Under the pieces are notes generated by a model. That model saw only the letters and a program-made list of their open reading frames with translations, ran no database searches and was not told the DNA's origin. A stretch of DNA of 40,934 nt, taken from positions 1 through 40,934 of the forward strand of contig JAJYHY010000025.1 in the NCBI GenBank assembly GCA_021784555.1, read 5' to 3'. Both the position numbers and the translations under genes were made by a program. Positions 22,571 through 38,797 of this stretch are shown piece by piece. Origin of the DNA: a bacterium. GTDB lineage: Bacteria > Verrucomicrobiota > Verrucomicrobiia > Limisphaerales > UBA8199. Position 1 is the first letter of the stretch, and the number at the start of each line of letters is the position of its first letter.

Positions 22571-23088
22571 TCATGGAGAGGGTTGGGGTCCTTGATCAAC
22601 CAAGCGGGACAGTCCGGTTCGTCCCGACCATAGGAGCGGGCTAATGCCCGCAACGCTAAGTCGGCCCGCTCGCGGTTTTCCTTCTCGAGGTTTCATGAGA
22701 CTTAATCTACTGCGGGCGGGGTGGAAGGGAAATGAAGAAGGGATTGTACGGGGTGGGCTGGGCCCGGGCGTGGCCGTCATCGCCGCGTTGAGCATCGCGG
22801 CCACCTGCGGCCAATGCGCCGCGTGATGGCCATGGAGATAATCCCGGTTCAGGACGAGCTTGGCCGAGCTGGGCCACCACTCGGCGATAAAGCTGGGTTG
22901 CTCGAACAGCCAGTGATGTCCGCCGTTAAGCACCCGCAGCGAGCACCCGCGCCGCTCGGCCCAGGCGCGGGCTTCGTCCTCCTGCCGGGCGGTGCGGTCC
23001 ATCCGGCGCTCGCGTCGCTGCCGCTTGTAGTCGTCGGGCGTAAGCGTTGGGCGCCGGCGCCGTCGTCGTTGAGTTTGAGGCTGATCAT
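22571..23088 (-). pseudogene. Fused remnant: start of the UPF0175-like gene joined to the RRERRMDR-family gene (copy 2)
   Basis: ATG 23088 gives MISLKLNDDG, the same start as the intact gene at 26009 (MINLELNDDG). Eleven codons later the sequence becomes, in another frame, the second family: RPTLTPDDYKRQRRERRMDR, RAWAERRGCSLRVLNGGHHW and EWWPSSAKLVLNRDYLHGHH. This parallels the intact gene at 25227-25679. About 300 bp separating the two genes in the other copy has been deleted. The start codon overlaps the stop of the preceding csb2 fragment as ATGA. The tail ends in unrelated sequence containing a GCGGGC-TAAT-GCCCGC hairpin (22636-22651). Confidence 0.65.
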
Positions 23089-24161
23089 GATGTCGGCCGC
23101 TGGCCGTGAATCTGCGGCGCTGGGACGAACAGCCCGAGGCCGAAGTGGCATGAATGGCCGAAAGCCGGAAATCGAAGTGTGACGGGGTCGTCAAATTCAA
23201 CCTCAAAAAACAAGCCGACCCGGCGTTCGTGTTTTCGGCCCATGTCACTGCCGTTTCGATGCACGGCGATGGCAACAGCGTCCTTGGACGCCCCTTCATC
23301 TGATCCTGGAGCGCGGACAACGTCCCATGAAGGCAGGGGTGGCATGGATTCCAGGCGCGACACGGCGCCGTTCTTCTCACCTTGGCGCCACACAAGGCCA
23401 CCAGTCGCAACGCCGGCTGCCCTGAGGCACTCAATCAACTGGCGCTCGGGCCGGTCCTTTTCCTTGAGCGTCACCTTGCCGCGCTGACGCCGGTAGAAGT
23501 AGCGGGGCGGCACGAATGGGCTGGCGCTACGCCAGACTTTCGACGAGGTCCTGCCGGTGGCGAAAGGCGCGTCGCTTGGCGCCTCCCTGGAGAGCGCGGT
23601 CAGGATGGGGCGCACTGGGTATCTGCCGCTGCCCCAGTCGAGCCGGTTGACGCGGAGCAGGATTTCGATTTCCGCCTGCGTGAAGCCATAGGGACACCAG
23701 ATGTGGAGGTCGCTCAAGGAGCCGCGCGAGTTGCCACGCTGCGCCATCGGCAGGTAGAAGGCGTGCTGATGGTCGCCGACGGCATCGGCGGGGCGGTCCT
23801 TCGCGTGACCGAGCAGCGCGAAGCTCGGCCCGACATCCCCGCAACGCTTGCAAAAATGGTTCGTGGCGGCGGCGCGGAATTGCTCCCTGAGCGGCACGAT
23901 GAATTTCGGTTGAATTAGAATGCGGGACGGCAGAGAGAAGCAGAGATAGTGGGCCATTTTCGGCCCGGCGGAGAGCGCGCTCTCCCATGCCGCGTCCTTG
24001 AGCAGCCTCCCAGATCCACAACCAGACTTCAGAAGGCCAATCTTCAGTCCTTCGGAGATGCGCTTCAGTTCCACCGTATCGGCCCCCGCCCTGGCGGCCT
24101 CGTCCAAAAGGTCGATCAGGTAGGTGTTTGCTCGTTCATCGCCAGGCTCGTTGTTGCTCAT
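23085..24161 (-). pseudogene. csb2: Chimeric ORF: GspE-N-like protein head joined to the C-terminal half of a second Csb2 (Cas5-Cas6)
   Basis: From ATG 24161, residues 1-57 (DERANTYLIDLLDEAARAGA ... GRLLKDA) are a copy of the 22208-22552 protein. From about 23990 onward the frame is a type I-U/I-G Csb2 C-terminal half: AVGDHQHAFYLPMAQ (the GHxHAxxLP-type stretch), LDWGSGRYPVRPILTAL, VWRSASPFVPPRYFYRRQRG and the terminal FGHSCHFGLGLFVP. About 200 N-terminal residues of Csb2 are missing. This Csb2 belongs to a different branch from the intact one at 26587 (VPPR motif here; SPVVLPGHDDP there), so it is a relic of a second system. Confidence 0.75.
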
Positions 24162-24184: not shown

Positions 24185-24241
24185 TCAAGTATCGGGTGCT
24201 GGCGCCGCCGGCAGGAACAGCCCCAGGCCGCTCACGAGGGC
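24185..24241 (-). pseudogene. Csb2 C-terminal tail relic 2
   Basis: A short frame ending at TGA 24185 reads ALVSGLGLFLPAAPAPDT. GLGLFLP is the signature last strand of Csb2, as in the two longer copies. It overlaps the end of the PemK/MazF-like toxin gene and stops 24 bp before the next small gene. Confidence 0.5.
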
Positions 24242-24588
24242 AATAGACCGGCCTCCCGCCGGAGGTAAAGGGTCAGCCGATCCATTATGCGGAGGTAACG
24301 GGCGGGGCTGATGGTCCCTATCTGGCCTTTGATTCCACTCAGAGGTACGGCCGCCAAATACCCCGCCCGAACGACGGAGGCCGTGACCAGACCCGATCCC
24401 GCGAAGTCTTCGTCGCCTGGCTGGATCAGGTCATCGAGGTCAGCCACCAGGAACCGCAATTGGCTGCTCACCCCGCAAACCAGGACATCCCTGAAGGGCG
24501 GCAGACGCAACAGCACCAGGGCCGGGCGGTTTTTTCGCAGGCCGTCGGCCTGCGGGAGCGGAGTAACCACCAGGCTACCGGGGTTCAT
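24232..24588 (-). CDS. PemK/MazF-like toxin
   Basis: 118 residues. The pattern matches the PemK/MazF endoribonuclease fold: GSLVVTPLPQADG then RKNRPALVLLRLPPFRDVLVCGVSSQ, AGSGLVTASVVRAGYLAAVP and IKGQIGTISPARY. Such toxins cut mRNA and are neutralised by the partner encoded just upstream. The ATG lies inside the antitoxin's last codons (14-nt overlap), indicating translational coupling. Assignment by motif. Confidence 0.75.
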   Translation of the reverse strand: MNPGSLVVTPLPQADGLRKNRPALVLLRLPPFRDVLVCGVSSQLRFLVADLDDLIQPGDEDFAGSGLVTASVVRAGYLAAVPLSGIKGQIGTISPARYLRIMDRLTLYLRREAGLLPS

Positions 24589-24814
24589 AGTGCGGGTTGG
24601 GTTCCTTGATCAATGAGTCCGGATAGTCCGGCTCCTCTGGACCATAGGCGAAGGCCAAACCACGCAGGGCAAGCTCAGCCCACTCGCGATGCTCATTTTC
24701 AAGCTCGTCCGGCAGCACCGTCACCAGCAGCCGTGCGTTTTTGGGCAGCGGATAGTCTTCTTGAAGCTGAATCTTTTGGCCATCAAACCTGGCTGAGAGT
24801 GTCACTGTCTTCAT
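24575..24814 (-). CDS. Antitoxin partner of the PemK/MazF-like toxin
   Basis: 79 residues. It opens MKTVTLSARFDGQKIQLQED, then NARLLVTVLPDE and AELALRGLAFAYGPEEPDYPDSL, and ends IKEPNPHYEPR. The N-terminal beta segment resembles swapped-hairpin antitoxins, and the acidic C-terminus with EPDYPDSLIKEPNP is the typical toxin-wrapping tail. It is first in a two-gene operon. Antitoxins of this type usually autorepress, but I see no clear operator. Confidence 0.7.
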   Translation of the reverse strand: MKTVTLSARFDGQKIQLQEDYPLPKNARLLVTVLPDELENEHREWAELALRGLAFAYGPEEPDYPDSLIKEPNPHYEPR

Positions 24815-25688: not shown

Positions 25689-26009
25689 TTAATTTTGGCG
25701 GGGATTCGCGTTGTCGCCCGGGCTTTCCGGCTTTGGTTCGCCAAGGAGTGAAAGCATATTGTCCACCTCCTCGGCCGCCTGTTCGGCGACAGACTTCGCG
25801 GAGATGCCGTGCTTCGTAAGCCACTCCACGCGCGCCACACCCGTGACCTGGGCGCACGCTGAGGAGGACAGCGCACCGATGTCGTATAGCGCGCGGCAGA
25901 GCACCTCGCGCAGAAAACGGTCCACGTCTTCGCCGCAGCCGTGCTCCCGTGCCGCCTCGCGAATCTGGTGGCCAACGAAACCGTCGTCGTTGAGTTCGAG
26001 GTTGATCAT
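25689..26009 (-). CDS. UPF0175-like small protein (possible antitoxin)
   Basis: 106 residues. The middle, FLREVLCRALYDIGALSSSA then CAQVTGVARVEWLTKHGI, resembles the UPF0175 antitoxin core (ALYREGKLSLGKAAELAGVSRWEFL pattern): a helix, then a short helix-turn-helix. The acidic tail ends PESPGDNANPRQN. The stop codon lies 9 bp before the next gene's start. No PIN-domain partner (the usual UPF0175 toxin) is adjacent; the RRERRMDR protein takes that position. The first ten codons recur at 23088. Confidence 0.5.
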   Translation of the reverse strand: MINLELNDDGFVGHQIREAAREHGCGEDVDRFLREVLCRALYDIGALSSSACAQVTGVARVEWLTKHGISAKSVAEQAAEEVDNMLSLLGEPKPESPGDNANPRQN

Positions 26010-26027
26010 GATGTCGGCGGCTGAGCG

Positions 26028-26381
26028 TTATTTGCTTTTGGGCGAATCGGGTCGTGCCAGCAGAGCCTCCGCCTGCTGCAGCAACAGCGGCAGCTTCTCC
26101 TGTATGACGCGCCAAACGATCTCGTCGTCAACGGAATCATAGCCGTGAATGAGGCACCGCTCAAAGAGGTCCTCAAGACCCTCGGCCAGGGCAAGATAGT
26201 TGTCCAGCGTGGTGAATCCGTCCTGGAAACCGACCAGAAAATCCAGATCGCTGTTCTTGGGGTCGAAGCGGTCGAGGGTGGCCGAGCCGAACAGCCCCAG
26301 GTGCCGCACGTGGCAGCATTTGCAGAGCCGGCGGATTTCGGCCCTTAGGCTTTCGAGTTTTTCGCGAATGACGCTGTTCAT
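26028..26381 (-). pseudogene. mntA-hepT in-frame deletion fusion
   Basis: 118 residues from ATG 26381. Residues 1-70 are a minimal nucleotidyltransferase (MntA antitoxin): VRHLGLFGSATLDRF then DPKNSDLDFLVGF, the GSX(n)SDLD active site, and LALAEGLEDLF. The sequence then jumps directly to the end of HepT: ERCLIHGYDSVDDEIVWRVI then QEKLPLLLQQAEALL. Intact HepT has an RX4-6H RNase motif (usually RN..IHGY); here the spacing is RX3H. A deletion of roughly 350-400 bp across the mntA/hepT boundary explains this. MntA normally AMPylates HepT to neutralise it; this product is unlikely to do either completely. Confidence 0.75.
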
Positions 26382-26586
26382 GACGCAGTCGTTTGCATGG
26401 CCCAAGCTCGGTCCGAGACCCTGGTCTGAGGTGGCCCTGGATTTGCTCGGCAAAGTCCGCCTCGCGGCTCGTGGCGACCCCCCGTTTCATGCAACCTTCC
26501 GTCGGGGTCTGCCGATGAATTGTCGTTGTCCATAATCGTGCGCCTTTCACGGTTTTATCGGCATCGTCCACGCCGATTTGAGCGGT

Positions 26587-28233
26587 TTACTCCACCAAAG
26601 GCACAAACAGGCCGAGGCCCGAGAATCGCCCGCTTCCGATACAAAGAGGTCCGTTAATCCTCTTCAGATGAAAAGTGCCATCGGGCAATCGCTCGCGCCA
26701 GACTACGCGAACATGCAAGCGACGGAATCGTCGGCATTGATTGGGCGCGGAATACCGCGATGCAAGGTCCACTCCCGGAAGAAAGCCTGTGCCGCGCCAT
26801 TGCAAATCGGCATCGGCGACAAGCGTAGCTGAGAGACCGGAGTCGATAAGCGCCTTCCTCAAGAGACGCTCTATGCGTGTGTCGAGCTTTCGGATTATCT
26901 GCGCTTTCTCAGCAACTGAGAGAGGGGTTGCGGCATCGCGCAGACGGCGGCGCACTTTGCGTGGGTCGTCGTGGCCAGGGAGTACCACTGGGGACACGGT
27001 TGTCCAAGCGGCGGACTCGGCGAAGTATCCGGCAATCGCATTATCCTCGTCTGACTGACGGCGGAGAAAGGCGACTGGCTGCTTGCCATCCTCGTCGGTG
27101 AGTTCCTGGCCTTCGAGCGCGCGAACAATGCGCAGGAATTCAGAGGCATCGCAATGGCCACTGACAGTGACCAGCACGCGACGAATCGCGCCGACTGTGC
27201 TTCCGCGATCTTCACCGCGCCATTCAATCGAAGGTAGCGGGATGAAGATGAGCCGGGGGCTGCTCGCGGTTGGTGTTGTCTTAGTCGGATCGCTCTTGTC
27301 GTGCCCGAGCACGAAAGCGTCAACTTTGGATTTGTCCCAGCCAAGCGCACCGGCGAACTCCGGGCGGCTGGCGGCGTGGCGAAGCATGCCGGCGAGGTGG
27401 AGGCGGCGCCATTGCGGATCAAATGCTACAAAGCCCGAATCGTCGGGGCGACGCAGGGCAAAGACGGCATAGGGCGGCTGGCTGACTTCGGTTGCTCGGC
27501 GGTAGGTGACGACGCGGAAGGTCGAGAGTGGCGATACAGGGACGAAGATTTCGCGCCCATCGTCGAGGTGCTTGATCCGGCCCAGAAACGCGGCATGGTG
27601 TTCATCCAGCGCGGCGAGCGTGCCGACGATGGGAACACGCAATGATGCGCCTCCGGCCGTTTCGACGGGTAGCCAATGTTCGCCAGAAAATGACGTGGAG
27701 ATTTCGCGCTTTTCGACTGCGGCGTCGGCGACGACAAGGTCAACACCCCATCCGAGGCACGTAATGGCGCGGGCAAGCGCGATGAGCGTCTCGCGGTGTT
27801 TGGCGAAATCGGTATCGTCGAGCGTCCAAAGGTAGTGGACAGCGGCGGCGCCTGCCAAACGTCGTGGGCGAACGCGCTTTTCCGTGCGGTAGCCGGAGAT
27901 GTCGATGGGGTGATTCTTGCTGTCGAAAAACTTGCCCGCCGACCATTGTTTCGCAACGAGATCGCCAACATTATCAGGGACGTAGAGTTGGTATCCATTT
28001 GTCGTGGCGGCGCTGTCGGCAATTATTTGTGGCGGCGGCTTAACCGCTTCCAACCAGCGGAGAGCGTCAGCGTTTTGCGAGTTAATCCCGTTGCCGTCTA
28101 ATCGAGCTGCGGCGTTGGTGAGCGCCTGAAAGAGGCGCAGGGGCGAAGGCGGCCATTCGGATTTGCCGTTGTCGCCGCGTCCATGAAATTCTCCGTCGAG
28201 AAAGCGGACGCTGATGCGGAGATGTTCGGACAT
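26587..28233 (-). CDS. csb2: Type I-U/I-G CRISPR Csb2 (Cas5-Cas6-like fusion)
   Basis: 548 residues. The N-terminal RAMP half begins SEHLRISVRFLDGEFHGRGD, then SEWPPSPLRLFQALTNAAAR, the WPPSPxRLFQALxxA signature of Csb2 (GSU0054 type). The second half has TTVSPVVLPGHDDPRKVRRR and ends GSGRFSGLGLFVPLVE, the glycine-rich terminal strand of the family. Csb2 binds the crRNA 5' handle and processes pre-crRNA within Cascade. It starts 8 bp after csb1 and is the last gene of the operon; the usual next genes (cas4-cas1, cas2) are absent. Confidence 0.88.
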   Translation of the reverse strand: MSEHLRISVRFLDGEFHGRGDNGKSEWPPSPLRLFQALTNAAARLDGNGINSQNADALRWLEAVKPPPQIIADSAATTNGYQLYVPDNVGDLVAKQWSAGKFFDSKNHPIDISGYRTEKRVRPRRLAGAAAVHYLWTLDDTDFAKHRETLIALARAITCLGWGVDLVVADAAVEKREISTSFSGEHWLPVETAGGASLRVPIVGTLAALDEHHAAFLGRIKHLDDGREIFVPVSPLSTFRVVTYRRATEVSQPPYAVFALRRPDDSGFVAFDPQWRRLHLAGMLRHAASRPEFAGALGWDKSKVDAFVLGHDKSDPTKTTPTASSPRLIFIPLPSIEWRGEDRGSTVGAIRRVLVTVSGHCDASEFLRIVRALEGQELTDEDGKQPVAFLRRQSDEDNAIAGYFAESAAWTTVSPVVLPGHDDPRKVRRRLRDAATPLSVAEKAQIIRKLDTRIERLLRKALIDSGLSATLVADADLQWRGTGFLPGVDLASRYSAPNQCRRFRRLHVRVVWRERLPDGTFHLKRINGPLCIGSGRFSGLGLFVPLVE

Positions 28234-28241
28234 GGCGTTCG

Positions 28242-29462
28242 TTAGGCGGAAGGTGTTGTTCGAGAGGCGGTTTGTTGATCGGTGGCCTCGGTGGAGGTTT
28301 GGGATTCATCAGGGGCCGCTGTTCCCTTTCCTCTCTTGGCTTTCTTCGCCGCTTTTTCAGCAGCTTTGCCCGCGAGGTCGGCTTTGGCGGCCGCAGGAAC
28401 AAAATCAACGAACCTCCCTTTCCACACACCCAGCGCGTTTTTGTCTTCGTCATTTTCCATTTTGTCCTTCCAGAATGCCGCCGCCGCCACTTTCGCATAT
28501 TCCAACGCGATTTCGTGCGTGACCTTGGCATCAGTTCGTGTGCCGTCCGCCGCGATTTCTTTGAATGAATGCTCTCCATCTTCCTTCTTCACCAGAATCG
28601 TGCCTTGGCGCAGGTAGCCGCCGGGAAGTTTGGTGAACGCGACCAGTGCGAGACCGAGGATATACCGGCGGAGTTTCAGCGTTTCCTCGTCGCTCGTGGA
28701 GGAAATCAAGCGCAGTGCCGCCAAGGCGAGCGTCGCGTCGCGACGAATTCCCCTTTCACCGGCGATAACGCCGCCGTGGGTGGCCGTCGCTGGAACGTGG
28801 GTGAATCCGGAAGTGGAGCGTTCTTTCCGGTCCTTCTCGTCCTTGATTGGACCGAGAACGCTTTCCTTGTCATATACTGTGACGGGATCGGAACTGCCTC
28901 CCGCCCAATACTGTGCGGATCTCGTGAGGCTTTTCACGTCGTAAGCGCGGATAATGGAGGCAATGAGGCGAGGTGCCTTAGCCTGGGTGCCGCGGGAGTC
29001 CCAAACGCCGAAGACGAGCGATGTGGGCGCGATTTTCGCGAGAGGCAGCGCGTCGCCTTTGAGAAGGGCTTTGAACGCCGCCTCTAATTCGCTTTGCAGC
29101 GATGAGCAGCGCACAATGGCGTCCCCGGCGCGATGTCCGGCATCGAGCAGGTTGATTTCCTTCTCGCCCGCCTTTATGACGATTTGTGGCACGAGCGCAG
29201 CGTAGTCGCCGGTTTTGAAAAGCGGCTCGATGCGGTTGGACTGCGAGCCGACACTGTCAACGAGCGCGATGTTCGTGCCGTCGGCGAACGCATCGATGTT
29301 GTAGCCGCCCTTGAAGGTTTTGTCTTCGGAGGGGGCATAAGTCGCGGGGAAGAAGACGCCGTCGGCGCCTTCTACAGGAATGAGTTGCTCGCGGATGACG
29401 AGGGCGGCGGGGCCAGCGGAAGCAAGGTAATTGTCGAATTTTGAGAGGACATTTTCGCTCAT
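28242..29462 (-). CDS. csb1: Type I-U/I-G CRISPR Csb1 (Cas7 backbone subunit)
   Basis: 406 residues. The recognised GSU0053-type pattern is: IREQLIPVEGADGVFFPATY, ALVDSVGSQSNRIEPLF, ALVPQIVIKAGEKEINLLDA, GHRAGDAIVRCS, KIAPTSLVFGVWDSRGTQAK, PRLIASIIRAYDV, LTRSAQYW, then ERGIRRDATLALAALRLI. Csb1 forms the helical backbone along the crRNA. The last 60 residues are Lys/Ala-rich (EKAAKKAKRGKGTAAPD), an extended tail. It begins 32 bp after the Cas3-Cas8-like gene. Confidence 0.9.
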   Translation of the reverse strand: MSENVLSKFDNYLASAGPAALVIREQLIPVEGADGVFFPATYAPSEDKTFKGGYNIDAFADGTNIALVDSVGSQSNRIEPLFKTGDYAALVPQIVIKAGEKEINLLDAGHRAGDAIVRCSSLQSELEAAFKALLKGDALPLAKIAPTSLVFGVWDSRGTQAKAPRLIASIIRAYDVKSLTRSAQYWAGGSSDPVTVYDKESVLGPIKDEKDRKERSTSGFTHVPATATHGGVIAGERGIRRDATLALAALRLISSTSDEETLKLRRYILGLALVAFTKLPGGYLRQGTILVKKEDGEHSFKEIAADGTRTDAKVTHEIALEYAKVAAAAFWKDKMENDEDKNALGVWKGRFVDFVPAAAKADLAGKAAEKAAKKAKRGKGTAAPDESQTSTEATDQQTASRTTPSA

Positions 29463-29494: not shown

Positions 29495-32400
29495 TTAACG
29501 GGGTGAAATGGTTCGCGCCGTGAGGAACGCCTTATGTTTTCTCTGCCCTGTGCGGAACCAGCTCTCGAAGCGGAGAATGGAGCGGGAATTGTCAGGCAGG
29601 AGGCCATAGACGGCGGCGGGCAGCGGCGAGATGGCCAGGGGACGCGTCCAAATACTGTAATCAAAATTGCGCGGCGTATCTCGCACGGGCACGGGAGTAG
29701 CGCGTTGCAGTCCGACGAGTGTGAGCAACTCGACGGCGGGAGAAGCGAGTGTCTCCAGCTTTAGGTCGTTTGCAGAAAAACCGACATCGCGGGAATGCGC
29801 GTTGGGGCCGCGGTTGGCGTCAAAATAGAACGGTTCGACCTTTTCGCCGTTTGCGATGTCGCCGAGGCTCTCTTCGCACCTTATTTTGGCCTTCGACACA
29901 GACTTCTCATATCTTGCGGCAATCTTTGCTTTCTCGGCCTCAAGTTCCTTTTCGGTCTTAGTTGCAGACGCCTTTTCCAGATCTTTGGCTCTTTTCTTCA
30001 TCGCCTTATGCACCGATTTTTTGAGGGTGTCTTGTGGCGGCTCAAAAGCTATGCGTGCGTCAAAGAGGATGTTTCTGCTGTCGGCCGGGGACTTCGAGAG
30101 GGTGTGTTTTATTGTGTAGTTCATGGAACGTGCTATGCGCGTCACCTTCATTGACCCGGCCCAGACTTTTAGCGCGGAGGTTTTGGCTGATGCAGTAGTC
30201 CACCAGTCAAGCCGCAGCCCGAAATCGGCCCCGACTATGAGCGGCGGCGCGGAGGCGTCACCTTCCTCATTGTCGCCTTTCTCTTCCGGCGCTTCCTGGA
30301 TTTCGCTGTCTTCGTCTTCGTCCTGATCGTCAGCTACGATCTCAGCAGACGTGATTTTTCCGAGGATGTCGCCGAGTGGTGGCGTATTGGCCAAATGGAA
30401 ACGCCATTGGCGGGTGGCGGGATCTTGCTCGAACCAAGCGAGAGCAGGCTCTGCGGTGTTGCCCTTGGCAGCAAGGCGGTCGGCGAGTTCAAAAAGGCCG
30501 CAGCAGGCGAAGTAATGGCCGGGATTGGCGGGATTGACCGCAAGGGTGGCGGTGGGAGCTATCTTGTTTCCGGCGTTTCTTACCGGAGCTCTGAATCCTG
30601 TATCCCGCCCCGGGTGGCCACTCGAGAAATTAGCGGCGTCACCGGTAACGACAATCCCGGCGCTGGCCGCGTAGTCGGCAGCGCGCAGTATGGATTCCAG
30701 CCAAGCGAGACCCCAGCGCCCGAAACGCCTTTGGAGCCGGCCAAAACGGCGTGGAACTTCTGTTGCGAGCGACGCCAATTCTTCGAGCGAACCGGAGGCA
30801 TAGTCAAGAATCTCGTCCGCAGGGAAATGCGGGCGTGCGCGTCCGTGGTGGGCGGCAACGATGTGCAAGACGATGTCGCGCTCGGTGTCATCGAGCGCCG
30901 CAAATTCGGCGTCGCAGGCGGCGTCGTTGAGCGAGCCGAACTCGTGTCGATAGTGCTCGGCGACGTTCCGCATGCGCATGCCGGGTGTGGATTTGGCAAG
31001 GATGGTTTCCGGCTTGGTGGAGTCGTAATCGAGATTACCGAGGTTGCGCTGCCATTGTACCCGGTTCTTCCCAAGGTCATGCAAACGCGCGGCAATTGTG
31101 ATGCAGCGGCGCAGATCAGGTTTGCCGACGGCGAGCGCGGATTTATCAGGGAAACATCTCGCGGCGATTGCGGCAGCGTTGGCGGCGACGAGGCCGGTGT
31201 GATCGGCGAGCGTTTCGGCGGAGGCGCGGTCGGCGCGAGCGCCGATGGCGTTTTCAGCTATGGGTTTGCACCAAAGCAGGAAACGAGGCTCTTCGGCGGC
31301 CTCGTCGGAGATTTCGATGGCCCGAACGATTTTGGCGGCACCGTCGGGCAGATCATCACGTCTGACCTCCTCATGGCGGATTATGGCGGAAACGTCTTCG
31401 GCCGCTGTGTCGTCATTTGCACTGAGGAGCCCTTTCGCATCGAGGCCGCCGATGCTGGCGGGAAGGATGAGCGTGGCGTCGGCCAAGCGGGTAAGGGCCG
31501 CGGCGGCGTCAAAATCGGAGAGCTTAAAGGACGAAACGGAGCCGTTGTCAGCAATGAGCCATGCGTTGGGAAAACCTTGTGCGCCCAGCAGGCGCTTCTT
31601 AAGCAGCGCGTCCAGCGTCTTGACGATGCGAGCGGTTGTGTCGCGCAGGAGTTCGGCTGGCTTGAGAGGAAAGTCGTCGAGGAAGGCGTCTGGATTTTCG
31701 ACGTACTGAAAATCGCGCTCGTCGCGCCACGCGAGGTGAGTCTCTGGCGGCTGCCACTCGGCTTCTCCGTGGAGGTAAGGTGCGACTGGCGGGCGCGCGG
31801 CGATGGGTTCGCGGATCGAGGTGAGCGACCACGCATCGAACTGGATTTCCGTGGCAACGCGCCTGTGCGGCTCCGGGGAAAATGCAGCAGCGCGTTCGGA
31901 GGCGGGTAGCTCTTCGAGTGCTGCGGGGCTGGCGGAACCGCCCACTTGTTTTAGAAGCGCGAGGGTGCGTTCGCGGCGGACTTCGAGCGGGTTGGAGGGA
32001 TCAAACCTCGTTTCGTGGACAACGGTGATCTCACTGTCGTCACCGTCCCCGAAGCGGTTCACGCGTCCGAAGCGTTGAGCCATGCTTTCATAGGTCGAAA
32101 GGTCGCAAACGAGGTCGTCGGCAGAGATATTGACGCCAACTTCGCCGGCACTCGTTGCCACGAGAAAAACGGTGCCGGGGGTGGGAGTGACGTCGACGGC
32201 GCGGTCCTTTTCGGGAAGGAAACGTTGGAAGACGGCATTTTGGGAGACGAGTTCGTCGCGCTCCTTGCCACGCATGGTGCCGGTGAGCGTGGCGACTTTT
32301 CCGTTGCGCTCGCCTTTATCCAATTCAGCGGCAACCTTTACGGCGGTTTCAACGGAGCGAGTGAAAACGAGCACCGCCCGTTCACCGGATTTCTGTCTCG

Positions 32401-33217
32401 CGAGATCGACAAGTTTCTCGTCCAATTTTTCTCCTTCGCCGAGCGCCTTGCGCGAGAGCCGTTTGACGGCGTTGACGCGTTTTTGGACGATCTCGTTTTC
32501 ACGGTCGGCTTCGGTCAGCGTGAACGGCGGGGCGCTGTCTCCGTTGGCGGCGCGGCTGGTCGCGGTGAGTTCAATGATGCGCAATTTGCGCGGATCGGCG
32601 GCGGCGTTTTGTGCGTTGGTGATGCTTTCGAGCAGTTTTTGGAAGGAGGGTTCGAGGTGGGCTTCGTCATGGACGATCAGCGCGTCTTGACCGAGGAAAC
32701 CGGCGTGGAGCGGTCGCGTTTTGAAACCGCGCGTGTAGCGGCTGAACAGCAGTCCGCTGCCAATCATGTCAACGGTGCCGACTATGACGGCCGGCCGGGT
32801 TGGGTCTGCGCACCACTCACCGTTGTCGGCGAATTGTCCGCGCAGTGTGCTGATAGCCAGCGGCGGCGCCTCGGGCGTCGGCAGTGGCAGAGCGCACAGG
32901 GACGCGAGCGCACCGCGAACTTCAGCGAGCGCCGCTTTGTTGAGCGCAGCACGCAGTCGTTCAGCCTCTGCGGTAGTTTGGTCCACCACCGTGCGACGAT
33001 TGACGACGTAAACGAGCCGACGGGGAGTTTTCCCGGGCACGATGGCAAGCGCGGAGAGCCAGATGGCGACGATGGAAGTCTTGCCCAAACCTGTGGGCAG
33101 ATTGACTGATTCCGGAATCTCACCCTCGATGAAACGGGCGAATAATGCCTCTTGCCAAGGAAAGGGCAAAGAGCCGGTCAATTCCCTAAAGAGCTCAAGA
33201 AAGTTTTTTGACTTCAT
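29495..33217 (-). CDS. cas3: Type I-U/I-G Cas3 helicase-HD fused to a Csb3/Cas8u2-like subunit
   Basis: 1,240 residues. The helicase has PTGLGKTSIVAIWLSALA (motif I, about 42-50), VHDEAHLEPSFQ (motif II), VFLVATSAGEVGVNISADD and MAQRFGRVNRFGDGDD (motif VI). The HD nuclease lies C-terminal to the helicase, as in this subtype: LHDLGKNRVQW near 712 and IVAAHHGRARPHFP. From about residue 885, after a linker, a further domain begins TATLAVNPANPGHYFACCGL then FELADRLAAKG. This is the characteristic start of Csb3/Cas8u2, normally the next separate gene. The tail has a Lys/Glu-rich coiled coil (about 1080-1140). The frame is continuous, so target binding and DNA cutting appear joined in one polypeptide. 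AAAGG lies 4 bases before the ATG. Confidence 0.87.
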   Translation of the reverse strand: MKSKNFLELFRELTGSLPFPWQEALFARFIEGEIPESVNLPTGLGKTSIVAIWLSALAIVPGKTPRRLVYVVNRRTVVDQTTAEAERLRAALNKAALAEVRGALASLCALPLPTPEAPPLAISTLRGQFADNGEWCADPTRPAVIVGTVDMIGSGLLFSRYTRGFKTRPLHAGFLGQDALIVHDEAHLEPSFQKLLESITNAQNAAADPRKLRIIELTATSRAANGDSAPPFTLTEADRENEIVQKRVNAVKRLSRKALGEGEKLDEKLVDLARQKSGERAVLVFTRSVETAVKVAAELDKGERNGKVATLTGTMRGKERDELVSQNAVFQRFLPEKDRAVDVTPTPGTVFLVATSAGEVGVNISADDLVCDLSTYESMAQRFGRVNRFGDGDDSEITVVHETRFDPSNPLEVRRERTLALLKQVGGSASPAALEELPASERAAAFSPEPHRRVATEIQFDAWSLTSIREPIAARPPVAPYLHGEAEWQPPETHLAWRDERDFQYVENPDAFLDDFPLKPAELLRDTTARIVKTLDALLKKRLLGAQGFPNAWLIADNGSVSSFKLSDFDAAAALTRLADATLILPASIGGLDAKGLLSANDDTAAEDVSAIIRHEEVRRDDLPDGAAKIVRAIEISDEAAEEPRFLLWCKPIAENAIGARADRASAETLADHTGLVAANAAAIAARCFPDKSALAVGKPDLRRCITIAARLHDLGKNRVQWQRNLGNLDYDSTKPETILAKSTPGMRMRNVAEHYRHEFGSLNDAACDAEFAALDDTERDIVLHIVAAHHGRARPHFPADEILDYASGSLEELASLATEVPRRFGRLQRRFGRWGLAWLESILRAADYAASAGIVVTGDAANFSSGHPGRDTGFRAPVRNAGNKIAPTATLAVNPANPGHYFACCGLFELADRLAAKGNTAEPALAWFEQDPATRQWRFHLANTPPLGDILGKITSAEIVADDQDEDEDSEIQEAPEEKGDNEEGDASAPPLIVGADFGLRLDWWTTASAKTSALKVWAGSMKVTRIARSMNYTIKHTLSKSPADSRNILFDARIAFEPPQDTLKKSVHKAMKKRAKDLEKASATKTEKELEAEKAKIAARYEKSVSKAKIRCEESLGDIANGEKVEPFYFDANRGPNAHSRDVGFSANDLKLETLASPAVELLTLVGLQRATPVPVRDTPRNFDYSIWTRPLAISPLPAAVYGLLPDNSRSILRFESWFRTGQRKHKAFLTARTISPR

Positions 33218-33290: not shown

Positions 33291-33536
33291 TTACTGGTTT
33301 GCGAACAAGACCCGGCGGTCGTCGGCCAGGGCACCATCCAGGAGAAACACCGTCCAGTGCTCGTGCCGACCATCCACGGAAAGCTCGATTACGGCTTCGG
33401 AGGTTGGAAGTTCGTGAGGCTCGTGAAGGATGAGGAAGTCCGGACCAAGCTGCGCAACAGGCAACGTGCATCCATTCAATCGGAGCCCTATTCGGACTTC
33501 CGCTGAATGACCGGCGGCCTGATCGTGCAATTCCAT
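33291..33536 (-). CDS. Small beta-rich protein of unknown function, divergent from the kinase-like gene
   Basis: 81 residues. EVRIGLRLNGCTLPVAQLGP then DFLILHEPHELPTSEAVIEL and SVDGRHEHWTVFLLDGAL look like a compact beta-sandwich. The ATG lies one base from the start of the divergent kinase-like gene at 33538. From memory such small proteins accompany kinase-like genes in related genomes, suggesting a pair. It is followed by 73 bp and then the Cas3-Cas8-like gene on the same strand. Confidence 0.55.
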   Translation of the reverse strand: MELHDQAAGHSAEVRIGLRLNGCTLPVAQLGPDFLILHEPHELPTSEAVIELSVDGRHEHWTVFLLDGALADDRRVLFANQ

Positions 33537-33537
33537 A

Positions 33538-34068
33538 ATGTTGAAAATGGACCTCGCCGAGAGAATCCAACATTACGCTCAAAGTTTCGGCGTGACGCTT
33601 GGCAGTAATCTCGGCTCCGGACATCATGGTAACGTGTTTGTTGCGCGAAGCAACACGAACCAAGCGCGTTTTGCAGTGAAATTTTGCAGGGATGAACCGC
33701 CGTATGTTCGCGAGTGCCGGGCCTACCGAATCCTGAAGGAGCGGCGTGTGTTTGACATCGAAGGCTTTTCTATTCCGCAATTTCTCGGGAGCGACGACGA
33801 ATTCCTCGCGATTCAAATGAGCATCGTCGAACCGCCTTTTTTGCTGGATTTTGGGTCGGCGTATAGCCGCGAGTCGCTCCCGGAATTTTCTGAAAGCATC
33901 TGGGCGGAGTGGCGTGAGCAAAAGCAACAAGAGTTCGAAGAACGCTGGCCTCTTGTGGAAAACGCGCTGATGGTCCTTCGCTCTTTTGACATCTTCATGC
34001 TCGACATTCATGCTCGAAACATTGTCTTTCCGCGACCGACGATGATTCATTGGTCGCGGCCTCGTTGA
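33538..34068 (+). CDS. Kinase-like protein 1 (minimal protein-kinase fold)
   Basis: 176 residues. Kinase features in order: a Gly-rich loop GSNLGSGHHGNVFVARS (about 22-38), a lysine strand ARFAVKFCRD, an alpha-C glutamate in YVRECRAYRILKE, a hinge region FLAIQMSIVEPPFLLDFGSA, and a catalytic-loop-like LDIHARNIVF near the C-terminus (D...N as in HxDxxxxN kinases, the His replaced). The protein ends within 11 residues of that Asn, so no DFG segment or activation loop is present. In-frame ATG at 33547 is an alternative start. The stop overlaps the next gene. It runs opposite to the cas genes. Confidence 0.6.
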   Translation: MLKMDLAERIQHYAQSFGVTLGSNLGSGHHGNVFVARSNTNQARFAVKFCRDEPPYVRECRAYRILKERRVFDIEGFSIPQFLGSDDEFLAIQMSIVEPPFLLDFGSAYSRESLPEFSESIWAEWREQKQQEFEERWPLVENALMVLRSFDIFMLDIHARNIVFPRPTMIHWSRPR

Positions 34069-34580
34069 AGAGTGTCGTTGTTGAAGGTATCGGTTCCCAT
34101 ATTGAGAACCCTCTCCGCGCTCACGTGAGCGCGGCCCCTTTCGGCTTCATGAGCGTGGCGCCGAGCGACTGGCCTTTGGGACGGTCGGAGAAACACAAAG
34201 CCCAGCCGGCGAAGGTTGCCCTCAAAGTCCTGCGCTGGAGCGAGGCTTACGAACGGGAGAAGCAGGTGTACGCGCGGCTCCGACAAGCCGGAGCGGGCAG
34301 CGTGCTCGGATTCAACGTGCCGCAACTCCTCGCATCCGATGACGAGTTGCGGGTCCTTGAGATGACTATCGTCAGGCCGCCGTTCATCCTGGATTTCGCG
34401 GGCGCATACCTTGACGCGCGGCCGCAATTTCCTGAGGAGGTGTGGAGGGACTGGGAGGCGGAGAAGAGGGAGCAGTTCGAGGAGCGATGGCCGACCGTTC
34501 AGGCATTGCTTGACGCGTTTGAGGCGCTGGGGATTTACCTGCTGGACGTGTCCCCGGGCAACATCACGTTCGGCGATTGA
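34050..34580 (+). CDS. Kinase-like protein 2, paralogue of the preceding gene
   Basis: 176 residues from TTG 34050 (other candidates: ATG 34149). It aligns with protein 1 from the lysine strand on: AKVALKVLRW, EAYEREKQVYARLRQ, NVPQLLASDDELRVLEMTIV, RPPFILDFAGAYLD, EEVWRDWEAEKREQFEERWP and YLLDVSPGNITFGD. The last element again resembles the kinase catalytic loop (D..PGN) and the protein stops immediately after. The Gly-rich loop is not evident; its N-terminus may be displaced by the overlap. It ends 28 bp before the cas3 5' stub on the other strand. Confidence 0.58.
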   Translation: MVAASLKSVVVEGIGSHIENPLRAHVSAAPFGFMSVAPSDWPLGRSEKHKAQPAKVALKVLRWSEAYEREKQVYARLRQAGAGSVLGFNVPQLLASDDELRVLEMTIVRPPFILDFAGAYLDARPQFPEEVWRDWEAEKREQFEERWPTVQALLDAFEALGIYLLDVSPGNITFGD

Positions 34581-34608
34581 GTCGAATCTCTCTTGCAGCG
34601 CAGCAGCG

Positions 34609-34788
34609 TCACCGCAGGCGAGGCGGCATTGATAAGCGTAGGGCGAGTGCCCGCCGGTGGCTACCGTGAAGAAGTCGCGAAAGTTCATGTTGCCTCAGAT
34701 TCTCCCAATTTCCGAATTCGCCGTTGGGGATGTTTTCCCCTATTTCAGCAGCGGTGACAAGAGAATTCTGCTTCGCCGCCCGAATTTG
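34609..34788 (-). pseudogene. Duplicated 5' end of cas3 (upstream region plus about 26 codons)
   Basis: About 180 bp nearly identical to 38621-38797. It includes the ATG (34688) and MNFRDFFTVATGGHSPYAYQ then CRLACGD, against MNFRNFFTVATGHEPYPYQC then RLACGEK in the full gene, plus about 100 bp upstream (TTGCCTCAGATTCTCCCAAT on the plus strand in both). The similarity ends at GTCACCGCAGG in both copies. The frame then runs into antisense sequence of the kinase-like genes. It is the stub of a second cas3 copy. Confidence 0.8.
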
Positions 34789-34821: not shown

Positions 34822-37800
34822 CTAAAATAGCCCCGAAAAGGCGCAAAAAGCGCAAAAGCCGGCGTTGAAAGGGGCTCTTTGCACCCGCCCCTGCCAGGCG
34901 CGGGGTCCTGGCGGGATGCGCCCCCGAATTTGGCCTTGCTCGGCCGCCTGAGGAGTTTCCAGATGGGCTGGGCTCCCGTTGAGGGGACCGCTTGAAAGGC
35001 CGGTCCCATCTGAGCTAAACTGTATGCGTGACGAATATCCAGGAAATCGAGCAGGCCATCGCACGGCTGCCCAGGGACGAATTCTTCGAGTTGGTCGAGC
35101 GTTTGCGCGAGCGCTACGCCGACGAGTGGGATCGGGAGATAGAGGAAGATGCTCGGAGCGGGAAGCTGAGGAAGCTCTACGAGCGGCTTCAATCCGAAAA
35201 TCAGGGCCAGCCGGAGGTGCCGCTTGATCAAGTCCTCGACGACCCAGAGCTTTCGTAGCCGGCTCAAGGCCTTGCTTTCGGAGGTGCGGCGCCTTGCCGG
35301 CAAGGATTTCAAGCTCCGGCTGCGGGATCAGCCGCACCCTTCGGTCCACTTCAAAAAGGCGGGCGAGTTCTGGGCGGCGCGAATTGGCAGCAACCATCGG
35401 GCATCGGCGATCTGGAGAGGCGATAGAGTCAGGTGGTTCTGGATCGGCACACATGATGAGTACCAGGAACTTATCAAATGAGCCCGCTCCCCGGCCATGC
35501 CCGTCACCGCTCACTCCTATTCGCTTCCCCCGGTCGGCAGCCTCGATTGTCCGCCACCGTCCCGCCCAGTCTGGAACCAAATCCCCGCAAATCGCCCGGT
35601 GCAGGTCCAGAGTCAGCTCGGGGTCGCTTAGCGAACGGCTAGCGAAAACTCCCGAGTAAATCTCTGTCTCGATGCGTGTAACCCGTTCGGCCAGTAACGG
35701 GGCTAACTGCGTGTAGGTGAGGAGGCCCCGGGTCGTCTGGATGAAGCGGGTGGAGCGATCCGGTCGAGTATCTCGCGGATGGTCGCTTCCGCCACCGGCT
35801 CCCTCTCGAAAGCCATACTCTCCGCCACATCCGCCGGAATAGCATCCCAACGCAGCCGTTGCTTTGTCTCCGCCGGCAGAGCGCGCCACTTGAGCACGGT
35901 TTCGATCCAGTTCATCACGCACACTATCACGCACTCCTTCCCTCTGTGCAAGAATCGAAGCGCGGATGTCCGCCGCCCGAAAGACCGCCTCGAAAAACGC
36001 CAGGCGAAACGGACCGTAACGCTCGAGGAGTCGGAGGACGCCGCGGGTGTAGCTCTCGTGCGGGTACTCGCCACCGGATCCCGGGCTGGCACGCCCCATC
36101 TTCCGGCAGTCAGTGGAAAGCGATTCGCAGCCGAGGCTTTGACCTCCGAGACAAACGGCTGGGACACCGTCCCCGTTCGCCACGCCCCGCACAGTCTCCG
36201 TGTCTTTCGCGGCATTCGGGAATTTCGGGATCTCATCCCGGAGGACTTTTCGCACATGGCCGTGGTGGCTCATGATGACATACTCGGAGAGGAGGCTGCC
36301 GAGGTTGATGTCGCGGTCTGGGCCAAGCCGCTTTTGCTCCGCCTGACGAAAAGCGAGCGCGGAGGCGACTTCGTGGGCGATGCCGGGACGAAACAGACGG
36401 CGAAGCTCCCGCACTTTTGCTTTGAGGGCGCGGCCTCTGAGCGGCTGGCCGTTTTGGTGGAGGAGGGGGCTATCGGAGAGCGAAAACTTCGCGAAGGGCC
36501 GGTGCTCATCTTTGCCGTTGACGTTCGCCTTGGCCAGAGCGTCGAGCACGGCTTGCTGCCAAGCGGGATGGCTCTTGCCGATGTCATGCCAGGGAACGGC
36601 AGCCAGGAGGGCGTCGCGCTCGGCTCCGCGCCTTGCGTCCGAGAGCATGCCGTCCAAAAGTGCGCTCAATTCGCGGCTCACTTCCTCGGTGTGAGCCGCG
36701 ATGCTTCGCCAGCCGTTCTCAAGGCAGGAGAGCAATTCCCCATCTGGCGGGTCTGCCCCCGGCTGATAATGGGAGGCGTGCTTGTTGTCGTCCTTCTGTC
36801 CCGTCCAGCCTGCGGCGTCGTCGTATCCGCCTGCTGAGAGCGGCAGCAGAACAGTCATGCCGGGCGCAAGGCCGGCGTCGCGGACGCTGATCCAACCGCT
36901 CACCTTTCCGCGCCAAATCCAACCTCGATTCAGCACGTCCCGCGCCTCCTTGGCCTTGCTGACGGGCACGGAGCAAAGCTCGTCGCGCTGGTAACCGGGC
37001 AGGAAGTCCGGGGCTTCGTCGTTCTCCGACCACGCCTCGCGCCAGCAGACCTGGATATCGGTGTCCTCATCCAAGCCGCGAACGAACGGCGATACGTCGG
37101 TGAAGCCCAGCGAGAGGTTCGCGTCGGTATCGAAGAAGTCGAGCAACTCGTGCCGCTGGAGTGAATATGGGCAGCGGGAAATCGAAGCAGCGACGGCCTG
37201 TCGTATCTGTTCATCTTCAAATGCTGCGGGAGAGGCACTAGTTTGCTCTTGCAGAGGCTCCCACGCTTTTTGGCACGCGGCCGACGCGTACGGCAGGCAC
37301 CGTTTGGCATTTTCCCTCTCGCGCTGTTCACGAGCCTCCTCGTTTTCACGCGCAGGCGCTCCTCTCATCCCCACCCCCACAACAATGGCCAAGGGCTCCC
37401 ACGGCGACTGGTTGAATTCGCCTGCGCGGTTCAGCCTTCCCAGCCGCTGCACGAGCGAAGCGAGAGGGGCCACTTCGGAACAGAGAATGCCGCTCGAAAC
37501 GTCCACGCCCGCTTCGACAACCTGCGTGGCGACGACGATCTGGCCGTTGGGAAAGACCGCCTGATCGAGTGAGCCGAGGCGCCGCATCTGTTCTTTCCGC
37601 TCCGGCGGGCGGAAACGCGAGTGCATGAGCAGCAGGTCGCAGGCTTCCGGTTTCCGAACGTCAAGTTGCCGATACACCTCCACCGCTCGGTCCACGGTGT
37701 TGCAGATGATCAGCGTCCGGGGAGGAAGATTCGGGTCGCCGCCGACCTTCGCAAGCATCTCGCCGTGCTGTCTGAGGATGCACTCGATTAGCGTTGCAGC

Positions 37801-38697
37801 GGCCCTGGCGTCGCCAAAGTTGGAGTCTTGTTTCGGTTCGAGTCGCTTCACCGCGCTGCGGCGCTCGTGAATGGGACCAGTCGTGGCAGATTTTTCGTCC
37901 GCGCTGAGCCTGAACTCGAAGTTGTCCGGGCGCTGGACGTTACGCCATTCCCGCGTCCGCAGGTGGTCGGGATTGTGCGTCGCCGAGATATACCACGTCA
38001 CCGAGCCGGCGGCGCCGAACGAATCAAATCCCGCTGGAGCAGCTTGTCCGTCTCTTCGGAAGGCCTCGAGCTGACACGCCGTGCTCAATCCCGGTCCCAT
38101 CAACTGCGTCTCATCCATCACCCAGAGGCAGTCGTTGTTTAGCAGCCCGAAGTGCATCGGCCAACGGTAGCGGCTCATGCCATAGCCGCGGTTGAGCGCA
38201 CGGCTCAGGAGCATGTCTTGCGTGCCGATGAGGATGGCGGGTTTTTCGGGCCAGATGTCCCCGTCCCGGTCCGCTTCCTCGCCGCCCATGAGGATGATGG
38301 GAGAGTGGCTGGCCAACCACGCGAGCTCGGCGTCCTCTGGAAACGCTCCGACGAGGTTTTGGAGCCAGGCGGCAACATTATCGCGCGTCTGCTCCACGAG
38401 CGTCCGCATCGGCAGGCAATAGACGAGGCGGCGGGGCCACGAGCCGTTTACGATTTCAGATTTGCGATTCTCGATTTGGTATGCGACGCGGTTCCAGAGC
38501 CAGGCGAGGACCACGGCGGCGGTCTTGCCGAGGCCGGTGGGGACGTTGATGAGCCGGGAGCGACATCCGTCTGGGTCGGGGTTGGTGAGCCAGTCCACTT
38601 CGGTTTGGTCGTCCATCTTCTCACCGCAGGCGAGGCGGCATTGGTACGGGTACGGTTCGTGCCCTGTGGCTACCGTGAAGAAGTTGCGAAAGTTCAT
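34822..38697 (-). CDS. cas3: Second type I-U/I-G Cas3 helicase-HD protein (homology to about 35940; frame runs on to 34822)
   Basis: 1,291 codons are open, but Cas3 similarity covers about residues 1-920. Motifs: INVPTGLGKTAAVVLAWLW (motif I, about 50-60), RRLVYCLPMRTLVEQTRDNV (Ia), VMDETQLMGPGLS (motif II, DETQ), ISATHNPDHLR (III), QVVEAGVDVSSGIL, and LVQRLGRLNRAGEF (VI). The HD domain is C-terminal (HTEEVSREL, WHDIGKSHPAW near 703, YVIMSHHGHVRKVLRDEIPK), ending RLAFFEAVFRAADIRASILA then QREG. Beyond that the frame has no stop at the expected place: it passes out of phase through the start of fic, in phase through the rest of fic, and antisense through the toxin-antitoxin genes. A normal stop has probably been lost. 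It is distinct from the Cas3 domain at 33217. Confidence 0.85.
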   Translation of the reverse strand: MNFRNFFTVATGHEPYPYQCRLACGEKMDDQTEVDWLTNPDPDGCRSRLINVPTGLGKTAAVVLAWLWNRVAYQIENRKSEIVNGSWPRRLVYCLPMRTLVEQTRDNVAAWLQNLVGAFPEDAELAWLASHSPIILMGGEEADRDGDIWPEKPAILIGTQDMLLSRALNRGYGMSRYRWPMHFGLLNNDCLWVMDETQLMGPGLSTACQLEAFRRDGQAAPAGFDSFGAAGSVTWYISATHNPDHLRTREWRNVQRPDNFEFRLSADEKSATTGPIHERRSAVKRLEPKQDSNFGDARAAATLIECILRQHGEMLAKVGGDPNLPPRTLIICNTVDRAVEVYRQLDVRKPEACDLLLMHSRFRPPERKEQMRRLGSLDQAVFPNGQIVVATQVVEAGVDVSSGILCSEVAPLASLVQRLGRLNRAGEFNQSPWEPLAIVVGVGMRGAPARENEEAREQRERENAKRCLPYASAACQKAWEPLQEQTSASPAAFEDEQIRQAVAASISRCPYSLQRHELLDFFDTDANLSLGFTDVSPFVRGLDEDTDIQVCWREAWSENDEAPDFLPGYQRDELCSVPVSKAKEARDVLNRGWIWRGKVSGWISVRDAGLAPGMTVLLPLSAGGYDDAAGWTGQKDDNKHASHYQPGADPPDGELLSCLENGWRSIAAHTEEVSRELSALLDGMLSDARRGAERDALLAAVPWHDIGKSHPAWQQAVLDALAKANVNGKDEHRPFAKFSLSDSPLLHQNGQPLRGRALKAKVRELRRLFRPGIAHEVASALAFRQAEQKRLGPDRDINLGSLLSEYVIMSHHGHVRKVLRDEIPKFPNAAKDTETVRGVANGDGVPAVCLGGQSLGCESLSTDCRKMGRASPGSGGEYPHESYTRGVLRLLERYGPFRLAFFEAVFRAADIRASILAQREGVRDSVRDELDRNRAQVARSAGGDKATAALGCYSGGCGGEYGFREGAGGGSDHPRDTRPDRSTRFIQTTRGLLTYTQLAPLLAERVTRIETEIYSGVFASRSLSDPELTLDLHRAICGDLVPDWAGRWRTIEAADRGKRIGVSGDGHGRGAGSFDKFLVLIMCADPEPPDSIASPDRRCPMVAANSRRPELARLFEVDRRVRLIPQPELEILAGKAPHLRKQGLEPATKALGRRGLDQAAPPAGPDFRIEAARRASSASRSEHLPLSPDPTRRRSARANARPTRRIRPWAAVRWPARFPGYSSRIQFSSDGTGLSSGPLNGSPAHLETPQAAEQGQIRGRIPPGPRAWQGRVQRAPFNAGFCAFCAFSGLF
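34992..35021 (+). promoter_or_regulatory. Promoter for the RelE/ParE-like toxin-antitoxin pair
   Basis: TTGAAA (34992-34997), an 18-base spacer and TAAACT (35016-35021). The antitoxin GTG follows at 35028, only 6 bases beyond the -10, which suggests a leaderless or nearly leaderless transcript. Confidence 0.5.
35028..35258 (+). CDS. Antitoxin of a RelE/ParE-like pair
   Basis: 76 residues from GTG 35028: NIQEIEQAIARLPRDEFFEL then VERLRERYADEWDREIEEDA, SGKLRKLYERL and an acidic tail VPLDQVLDDPELS. This is a standard layout for small antitoxins: an N-terminal helix that includes LPRDEFFEL, a DEWDREIEEDA segment, and a C-terminal toxin-binding part. It overlaps the toxin start by 35 nt. The cassette lies antisense within the run-on reading frame of cas3. 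Confidence 0.75.
   Translation: MTNIQEIEQAIARLPRDEFFELVERLRERYADEWDREIEEDARSGKLRKLYERLQSENQGQPEVPLDQVLDDPELS
35224..35481 (+). CDS. RelE/ParE-like toxin
   Basis: 85 residues from TTG 35224. SRLKALLSEVRRLAGKDFKL then HPSVHFKKAGEFWAARIGSN, HRASAIWRGDRVRWFWIGTH and DEYQELIK follow the RelE/ParE/HigB barrel pattern (helical hairpin, then RIGxxHRA and a WIGTHDEY ending). Family members block translation or gyrase. Insertion of this cassette appears to have cut the fic gene on the other strand just after its WAGRWRTIE motif. Confidence 0.75.
   Translation: MIKSSTTQSFRSRLKALLSEVRRLAGKDFKLRLRDQPHPSVHFKKAGEFWAARIGSNHRASAIWRGDRVRWFWIGTHDEYQELIK
35540..35915 (-). pseudogene. fic/DOC-family gene, N-terminal part, frameshifted and truncated
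   Basis: The start is ATG 35915 (MNWIETVLKWRALPAETKQR), preceded by GGAG and in-frame GTGs. The inhibitory-helix-like region SMAFEREPVAEATIREILDR follows. A one-base shift near 35748 (reading CTCCACCC; one extra C would restore phase) leads to FIQTTRGLLTYTQLAPLLAERV, then IYSGVFASRS, LDLHRAICGDLVPDWAGRWR and TIE. This is the typical entry to a Fic domain. The catalytic HPFx[D/E]GNGR loop is absent; the gene is interrupted by the toxin-antitoxin cassette. Fic proteins transfer AMP to target proteins. It lies directly behind cas3 in the same orientation. Confidence 0.65.
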
Positions 38698-38797
38698 GTT
38701 GCCTCAGATTCTCCCAATTTCCCGAATTCGCCGTTGAGGATGTTTTCCTCTATTTCAGCGATGATGACAAGAGAATTCTTCCTTAGCGCTCGAATTT
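38621..38797. repeat. cas3 5' region, parent copy of the 34609-34788 duplication
   Basis: Contains the cas3 ATG (38697) and about 100 bp upstream. It matches the 34609-34788 stub at most positions, including CCGTGAAGAAGT, TTGCCTCAGATTCTCCCAAT and GACAAGAGAATTCT. Any cas3 promoter lies within the duplicated piece, so the stub should carry it too. Confidence 0.8.

Follow-up and report, generated by a model that had tools for sequence, protein, structure and literature searches.

A predicted short kinase-fold protein and its PilZ-like partner form a divergent two-gene cassette often found directly upstream of type I-G cas genes

Background

A short kinase-like protein is already known as a CRISPR-linked kinase through PADLOC, where profile PDLC01137 (‘ST_Kinase’, 162 positions) describes the same protein family, at the same short length, as the one considered here (hereafter K). 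The PADLOC entry names K alone and places it beside I-C systems in Rhodopirellula, whereas the cas-linked loci reported below are of type I-G or V-B. In the window (i.e. the whole stretch of 40,934 nt that was analysed) the family is represented by K1, a compact and intact member of 176 aa with a predicted kinase fold (33538..34068, + strand; assigned by PDLC01137, structure model and hhalign). Head-to-head with it lies P, an 81-aa partner modelled as a PilZ-like beta-barrel (33291..33536, − strand), which reads towards the cas genes. Hanks-type Ser/Thr kinases (PF00069) have in common with K the Gly-loop, the AxK lysine, the helix-C Glu and the DxxxxN loop; their DFG, activation segment and C-lobe helices follow the catalytic loop, whereas K is devoid of these and carries a DFG-like segment before the loop.

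Among two-gene systems, type II toxin-antitoxin modules consist of two adjacent, co-conserved small genes, as is the case for P and K (59 of 62 loci), and are organized as same-strand operons, whereas P and K are divergent in all pairs. In HipBST (HipT-HipS) a compact kinase is neutralised by a small non-kinase partner (PMC8262856). The arrangement that we propose for P-K is similar in pairing a compact kinase with a small partner, and differs in that HipS stems from the N-terminal part of HipA and the genes form same-strand operons, while in P-K the partner is PilZ-like, the genes are divergent and the kinase is shorter. The type I-G locus of T. sulfidiphilus is reported to contain two toxin-antitoxin systems between csb2 and cas4-1 (PMC9638904), so that cargo of this kind is nothing exceptional in the vicinity of I-G genes. 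The literature searched, which extended to few subscription papers and included PMC10910872, PMC9638904, PMC8262856 and PMC12599244, gave no account of P as the partner of K, of their shared start, of the limits of the cassette, of its constant orientation at I-G and V-B loci, of the prevalence of orphans or of the displaced DFG.

Two kinase-like open reading frames in the window

An earlier note on this DNA had described two overlapping paralogous genes running against the cas operon. Two open reading frames of 176 aa each are indeed present (33538-34068 and 34050-34580, both +); their products are paralogues (38% over 128 aa, E 3e-34), and both run antiparallel to the type I-G cas genes. The overlap did not stand, as the homology of the second (K2) begins only at 34179-34194 (K profile 35-164) and the apparent overlap therefore rests on an arbitrary TTG start. 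Both proteins match PDLC01137, K1 over the full length of the profile (E 1.7e-44, positions 4-162 of 162) and K2 (34179..34580, +) over 37-162 only; the latter retains the Lys strand, the Glu, an LDFA and the catalytic loop, and lacks the Gly-loop part as well as a P of its own. In Pfam, K1 yields a weak match to the kinase N-lobe only (PF00069, E 0.025; 14.4 vs a cut-off of 31.7 bits). All K rows (40/40, best 1.2e-60) match the PADLOC profile, which ends just past the catalytic loop as the K family does, and this common end indicates that members of the family are normally this short.

K2 is 72% identical to the K of a related genome, and in the phylogenetic tree (54 rows, with ten decayed or partial loci left out) it falls within a starred clade of eight rows together with L013 (from the window's own genome), L018, L025 and L039, while K1 stands alone on a long branch. 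A tandem duplication giving rise to K1 and K2 was rejected on account of these positions. The insertion of a dispersed repeat between them was also dismissed, since no second copy of 34056-34190 occurs in the genome, and none of its palindrome in the window. K2 is a kinase relic that has lost its 5' end, and we consider that it may stem from an older K copy; decayed copies were also recorded at L013, L036, L047, L051, L059, L062, L066 and L131.

The 3' end of K2 is touched by a 5' fragment of cas3g (34563..34688, −; detected by tblastn and as a DNA repeat of 38621-38797). The cas3g 5' end is duplicated along with its upstream DNA (34563-34787 and 38621-38797, 82-97% per block), and a cas3g 5' fragment is likewise located at the 3' end of K in L013 and L033.

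The earlier note had also proposed that the two proteins act together as truncated kinases, in the form of a heterodimer or an inhibitor pair. Their adjacency as paralogues speaks for such a partnership; against it, K2 is without its 5' part, without P and in another clade, it borders on a cas3 fragment (the broken K of L013 does so too), and no such K-K tandem without P was encountered elsewhere among the 62 loci. We regard this proposal as hardly credible.

Fold and active site of K

The prediction of a kinase fold made in the earlier note was borne out by both structure and profile comparisons. The K1 model (built on an 11-row alignment; pLDDT 89, pTM 0.82) has kinases as its best Foldseek matches (E 8e-4 to 6e-3). 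In structural alignments, which span residues 2-167, RIO kinases rank best (Z 8 to 10 over 124-130 residues; RIO1 Z 10.1 over 124 residues, rmsd 4.2), other kinases (Z 7-9) lying within about 2 Z of them. Only kinases appear among the 60 matches listed for the K profile against PDB sequences (best 2.9e-4, in the N-lobe), and hhalign paired this profile with 14 local Hanks kinases at a probability of 96.9 over 117 columns (with an E-value that refers to one comparison). On these models and profiles, K has a kinase fold.

The kinase-type lysine, alpha-C glutamate and catalytic-loop D...N that had been pointed out from the sequence are all found in K1 (K48, E59, D156 and N161), which also carries the Gly-loop. 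Within the family, the Gly-loop (G26, G28, G31), the AxK lysine K48 and the helix-C E59 are kept in 39-40 of 40 rows, and the catalytic loop (DxxxxN, K1 residues 156-161, 34003..34020, +) in nearly as many (D156 in 38/40, N161 in 39/40). The chain ends at most 23 residues past the catalytic-loop Asn in the 58 loci listed (15 residues in K1), and a DFG, an activation segment and a C-lobe are absent after the catalytic loop in all 58. RIO proteins keep their metal Asp after the catalytic loop, where K has none.

The statement that K lacks both DFG and C-lobe was thus correct for what follows the catalytic loop, and failed for what precedes it: residues 99-109 of K1 (PPFLLDFGSAY; 33832..33864, +) are a DFG-like segment, N-terminal to the loop, that represents the invariant family motif PPF[LV]LDF[AG]xAY. 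In its LDF[A/G] core D104 and F105 are invariant (40/40 rows), and a P[FY]x[LV]DF[AG] segment is found in 61 of 64 K sequences (missing in L047, L066 and L129). The segment sits between the hinge and a long helix (119-149), and the K1 model contains two-residue strands at 101-102, 108-109, 153-154 and 162-163, which would correspond to beta8, beta9, beta6 and beta7, provided that the segment occupies the DFG position.

When columns 98-113 were moved to the C-terminus, the hhalign score to kinases reached 83.2 (vs 74.4 with these columns deleted); shuffling the moved columns gave a mean of 74.0 (sd 2.6), with none of 100 shuffles as high, and 1 of 100 in a second set of 23 kinases. The ten rows with LDFG behaved similarly (0/40 shuffles as high in both kinase sets), the 28 rows with LDFA gave a weaker outcome (2/40 and 1/40), and a fine scan of all segment start points returned 95 and 98 as the top two. 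With hmmsearch, the move was not separated from the shuffles (8.51 vs 8.12, sd 0.46).

The better hhalign match after relocation of the segment suggests a permuted kinase, and, judging from sequence profiles and the model, we lean slightly towards the view that K is one, with its DFG-type segment moved before the catalytic loop. Its metal-binding segment would then probably lie between the hinge and helix E and the chain would end after the catalytic loop, so that all five active-site residues (K48, E59, D104, D156 and N161) would be present. If this is right, K would be, to our knowledge, the shortest kinase-fold enzyme family.

P and the limits of the P-K cassette

K relatives were collected from the window's own genome, 97 relatives, a scan of 84,980 species genomes (44 K loci, in Verrucomicrobiota and Planctomycetota) and samples of 387 and 392 genomes, and the K and P profiles were run over six frames of the loci. 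This resulted in 62 distinct loci (with the window entered a single time and two loci from each of several genomes), at 59 of which, distributed over both phyla, P adjoins K; the 81-residue gene at 33291, which had received a passing mention in the earlier note, is accordingly the conserved partner of K. The three loci without P are L062, L065 and L131, and K is incomplete at L062 and L131.

The P model (42-row alignment, pLDDT 86) shows six strands in a PilZ-like barrel. PilZ structures are among its best matches (Foldseek E 0.035-0.05; several at Z 6-8, with non-PilZ barrels mixed in), whereas P has no Pfam PilZ match (no Pfam match at all in 11 rows) and no match to PDB sequences. The c-di-GMP motifs of PilZ domains are RxxxR and [DN]xSxxG; the second occurs in only 3 of 42 P rows, the first in 24 of 42 when counted regardless of position. 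P is, on its modelled fold, best called PilZ-like, and is probably a barrel that no longer binds c-di-GMP and binds and holds K instead.

P and K are head-to-head in all pairs, and their start codons are fused as one CATG in 50 of 60 (by a rough estimate, frame and preceding C would produce this by chance in about one pair in ten). The window belongs to the ten pairs that deviate, its junction reading CATAATG (33534..33540). Among modules at 64-90% DNA identity, most pairs lose their similarity at, or close to, the stop codons of P and K, which sets the conservation limits at about -246 and +494 (counted from the K start; a unit of ~740 bp); with similarity ending at these stops, no third conserved gene (such as the HTH protein HipB) was found. 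The dN/dS values (NG86; the 40 most similar pairs listed, where defined) range between 0.06 and 0.24 for K and between 0.13 and 0.37 for P. Furthermore, the identity matrices of K and P are correlated across 53 loci (r 0.79; at most 0.27 on permutation), an agreement for which common descent by itself may account. Taken together, K1 and P form one self-contained two-gene cassette under purifying selection in two phyla.

Judged by where DNA similarity stops, the cassette seems to carry no outside control DNA. As conservation ends at both stops, we infer that the transcript start of each gene would lie largely inside the other, unless transcription comes from outside. Promoter-like sites (1 found vs 0.5 expected) and terminator signals did not exceed chance, no RNA family was detected in the region, and Shine-Dalgarno-like words upstream of the shared start were in slight excess (K 11/47, P 15/47 vs 13% of control windows inside K genes).

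Association with CRISPR-Cas loci

The CRISPR-Cas system of the window is of type I-G, with all of cas3g, cas8g, cas7g and cas5/6g present on the − strand: cas3g joined to cas8g (29495..33217; 77 nt downstream of P by match ends), cas7g (28242..29462) and cas5/6g (csb2; 26587..28233). A second, different cas3g (35998..38700, −; the rest of its open frame unmatched) lies on the other side of the kinase-like genes, as does the 5' cas3 fragment at 34563-34688, and the placement of the pair between two cas3 genes, as first described, is therefore accurate. In the window (which is the entire contig), no cas4-cas1 match and, by a crude scan, no CRISPR array were found; either may lie elsewhere.

The neighbours named in the earlier note had mixed fortunes. 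An MntA-HepT remnant is supported by a nucleotidyltransferase-like open reading frame with a HepT-like tail (25689-26453, −; PF01934 E 2.1e-7), which lies beside a weak UPF0175 match and looks like an MntA-HepT relic; the putative RelE (35224-35478) has no Pfam match. The window also contains a PemK/MazF-like toxin gene (24232-24814, −; PF02452 E 4.1e-6, above cut-off) preceded by a 79-aa open reading frame, and the two are likely a toxin-antitoxin pair near the cas genes. An open reading frame at 23085-23700 (−) resembles by eye the C-terminal end of csb2 and was unreported by tblastn.

Linkage to cas genes was assessed by tblastn with the Cas proteins of the window, a csx17, two Cas4-Cas1 proteins and a Cas12b, and cas types beyond I-G and V-B were thus detectable only via Cas1 or Cas3 similarity. 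Of the 59 loci with P, 19 have cas genes on the P side, always on the P strand and at a distance of 77-1947 nt (18/54 among loci with at least 1 kb beyond P). K-side cas matches were found in only 4 loci, all four of which also have them on the P side. The linked loci comprise 18 of type I-G (L042 by a partial csb2 only) and one of type V-B (L049). In the 387-genome phylum sample, K occurs in 3 genomes (the window's own and two others) and Cas3g above cut-off in 19; in both other K genomes K lies close to Cas3g (4.2 and 2.2 kb). The link to cas genes that had been suggested from this single locus is real: in many cases P-K immediately precedes cas genes of type I-G (once V-B), and P is then transcribed in their direction.

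Several linked loci show further particularities. In L033 (8478-11308), two P-K modules of different subfamilies share one I-G region with two cas3g and the 5' fragment of a third, and in L025 a Fic-domain gene (PF02661) and a PADLOC PDC-S05 match (4283-5446 and 8740-9315) occupy the stretch of the I-G locus that separates P from csx17.

Such a constant orientation could mean that P-K regulates cas expression and is no toxin-antitoxin pair, with K sensing or phosphorylating, P relaying and the divergent start region driving the cas operon. All 19 linked loci have P facing the cas genes, and genes divergent from an operon often regulate that operon. Against this, 40 of 59 modules lie away from cas genes, no match to a DNA-binding domain attained its curated cut-off for either P or K, and the promoter-like site is not above chance. 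We rank this explanation second and deem it rather unlikely.

Alternatively, K could help in CRISPR adaptation or aid the effector, either as a pseudokinase or as a subunit that binds ATP. The PADLOC description ties the family to an adaptation operon, and Cas4-Cas1 matches occur in nine loci (L026, L037, L039, L041, L045, L049, L064, L101 and L102), among them the only V-B case (L049:492-9724), in which the module lies between a Cas12b (an open frame of 1888 aa, after P) and a Cas4-Cas1 fusion beyond K. The catalytic residues are, however, strongly kept, and orphans dominate the Planctomycetota sample, so that K is retained without cas genes: K was found in 13 of 392 genomes (16 places), the 13 regions examined there had no cas match (G837 left out), and L049 was the sole linked place seen. 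A role of this kind appears decidedly improbable.

The earlier note had set a defence role against homologues occurring mostly as orphans away from defence genes. In number orphans do prevail, with cas matches absent (tblastn) at 40 of the 59 modules, but the third that is linked to cas genes greatly exceeds what chance would give and has a single orientation. Around the loci without cas, neighbours are ordinary genes, and no neighbour family recurs in more than 3 loci (137 ORFs, 37 loci). One orphan K has a Gp49/HigB-like gene with an HTH partner at its 3' end (L019:8568-9426). In two related genomes (L125 and L126) an orphan P-K is found in the same gene order, with flanks at 81-84% DNA identity, and this shared order points to vertical retention of the module.

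On the tree, cas linkage is clustered and has been gained or lost several times (10 label changes vs 17 when shuffled, at least 3 forced). These several independent cas placements, together with orphans scattered among housekeeping genes and many decayed copies, would suit a selfish or neutral cassette which merely survives near cas loci and has no CRISPR function. The one orientation in 19/19 loci and the constraint on both proteins argue against it, as does the failure to find a relative in 2.9 million viral contigs (searched with one pattern only) or a plasmid match for K1, and we consider it improbable. A phage or plasmid origin was rejected on the same viral and plasmid searches.

A possible guard of the CRISPR locus

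The reading that we rank first, and hold with somewhat more doubt than confidence, is that P-K guards the CRISPR locus in the manner of a toxin-antitoxin pair. In this scenario K would be an ATP-dependent effector, probably growth-arresting or regulatory, which P binds, restrains and keeps off. As the start codons overlap, the upstream control DNA of each gene would lie inside the other, and the expression of P and K would thereby interfere and create a switch; the overlapping starts may even render their expression mutually exclusive. At the head of the cas operon, P would be made together with the cas genes, so that the cassette would guard or gate the CRISPR locus. Several observations stand against such a guard. 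At the 40 of 59 loci without a cas match, the neighbours are ordinary and share no recurring family. Most two-gene toxin-antitoxin pairs are same-strand operons, whereas P and K are divergent, and P is no known antitoxin. Moreover, the distance from P to cas varies from 77 to 1947 nt, which makes their co-transcription a guess.

Joining the guard reading with the predicted active site, P-K may be a new two-gene switch, read both ways from one CATG, in which a permuted kinase (beta8-DFG-beta9 moved from after the catalytic loop to behind the hinge) with a complete active site in ~164 residues, and without activation loop or C-lobe, is held by a PilZ-like antidote, and which was repeatedly co-opted for the guarding or control of loci of types I-G and V-B. 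We regard this joint reading as possible and, taken as a whole, doubtful. If true, it would represent a kinase active site reordered in an uncommon way, and a switch under the control of a partner that is linked to type I-G CRISPR, the accessory genes of which are little studied. P-K furthermore raises the testable question of how two divergent genes are expressed when their start codons overlap and no DNA separates them. Should the CRISPR role fail, the near-obligate P-K pair, present in two phyla and undescribed in the literature searched, would still constitute a definable new gene family.
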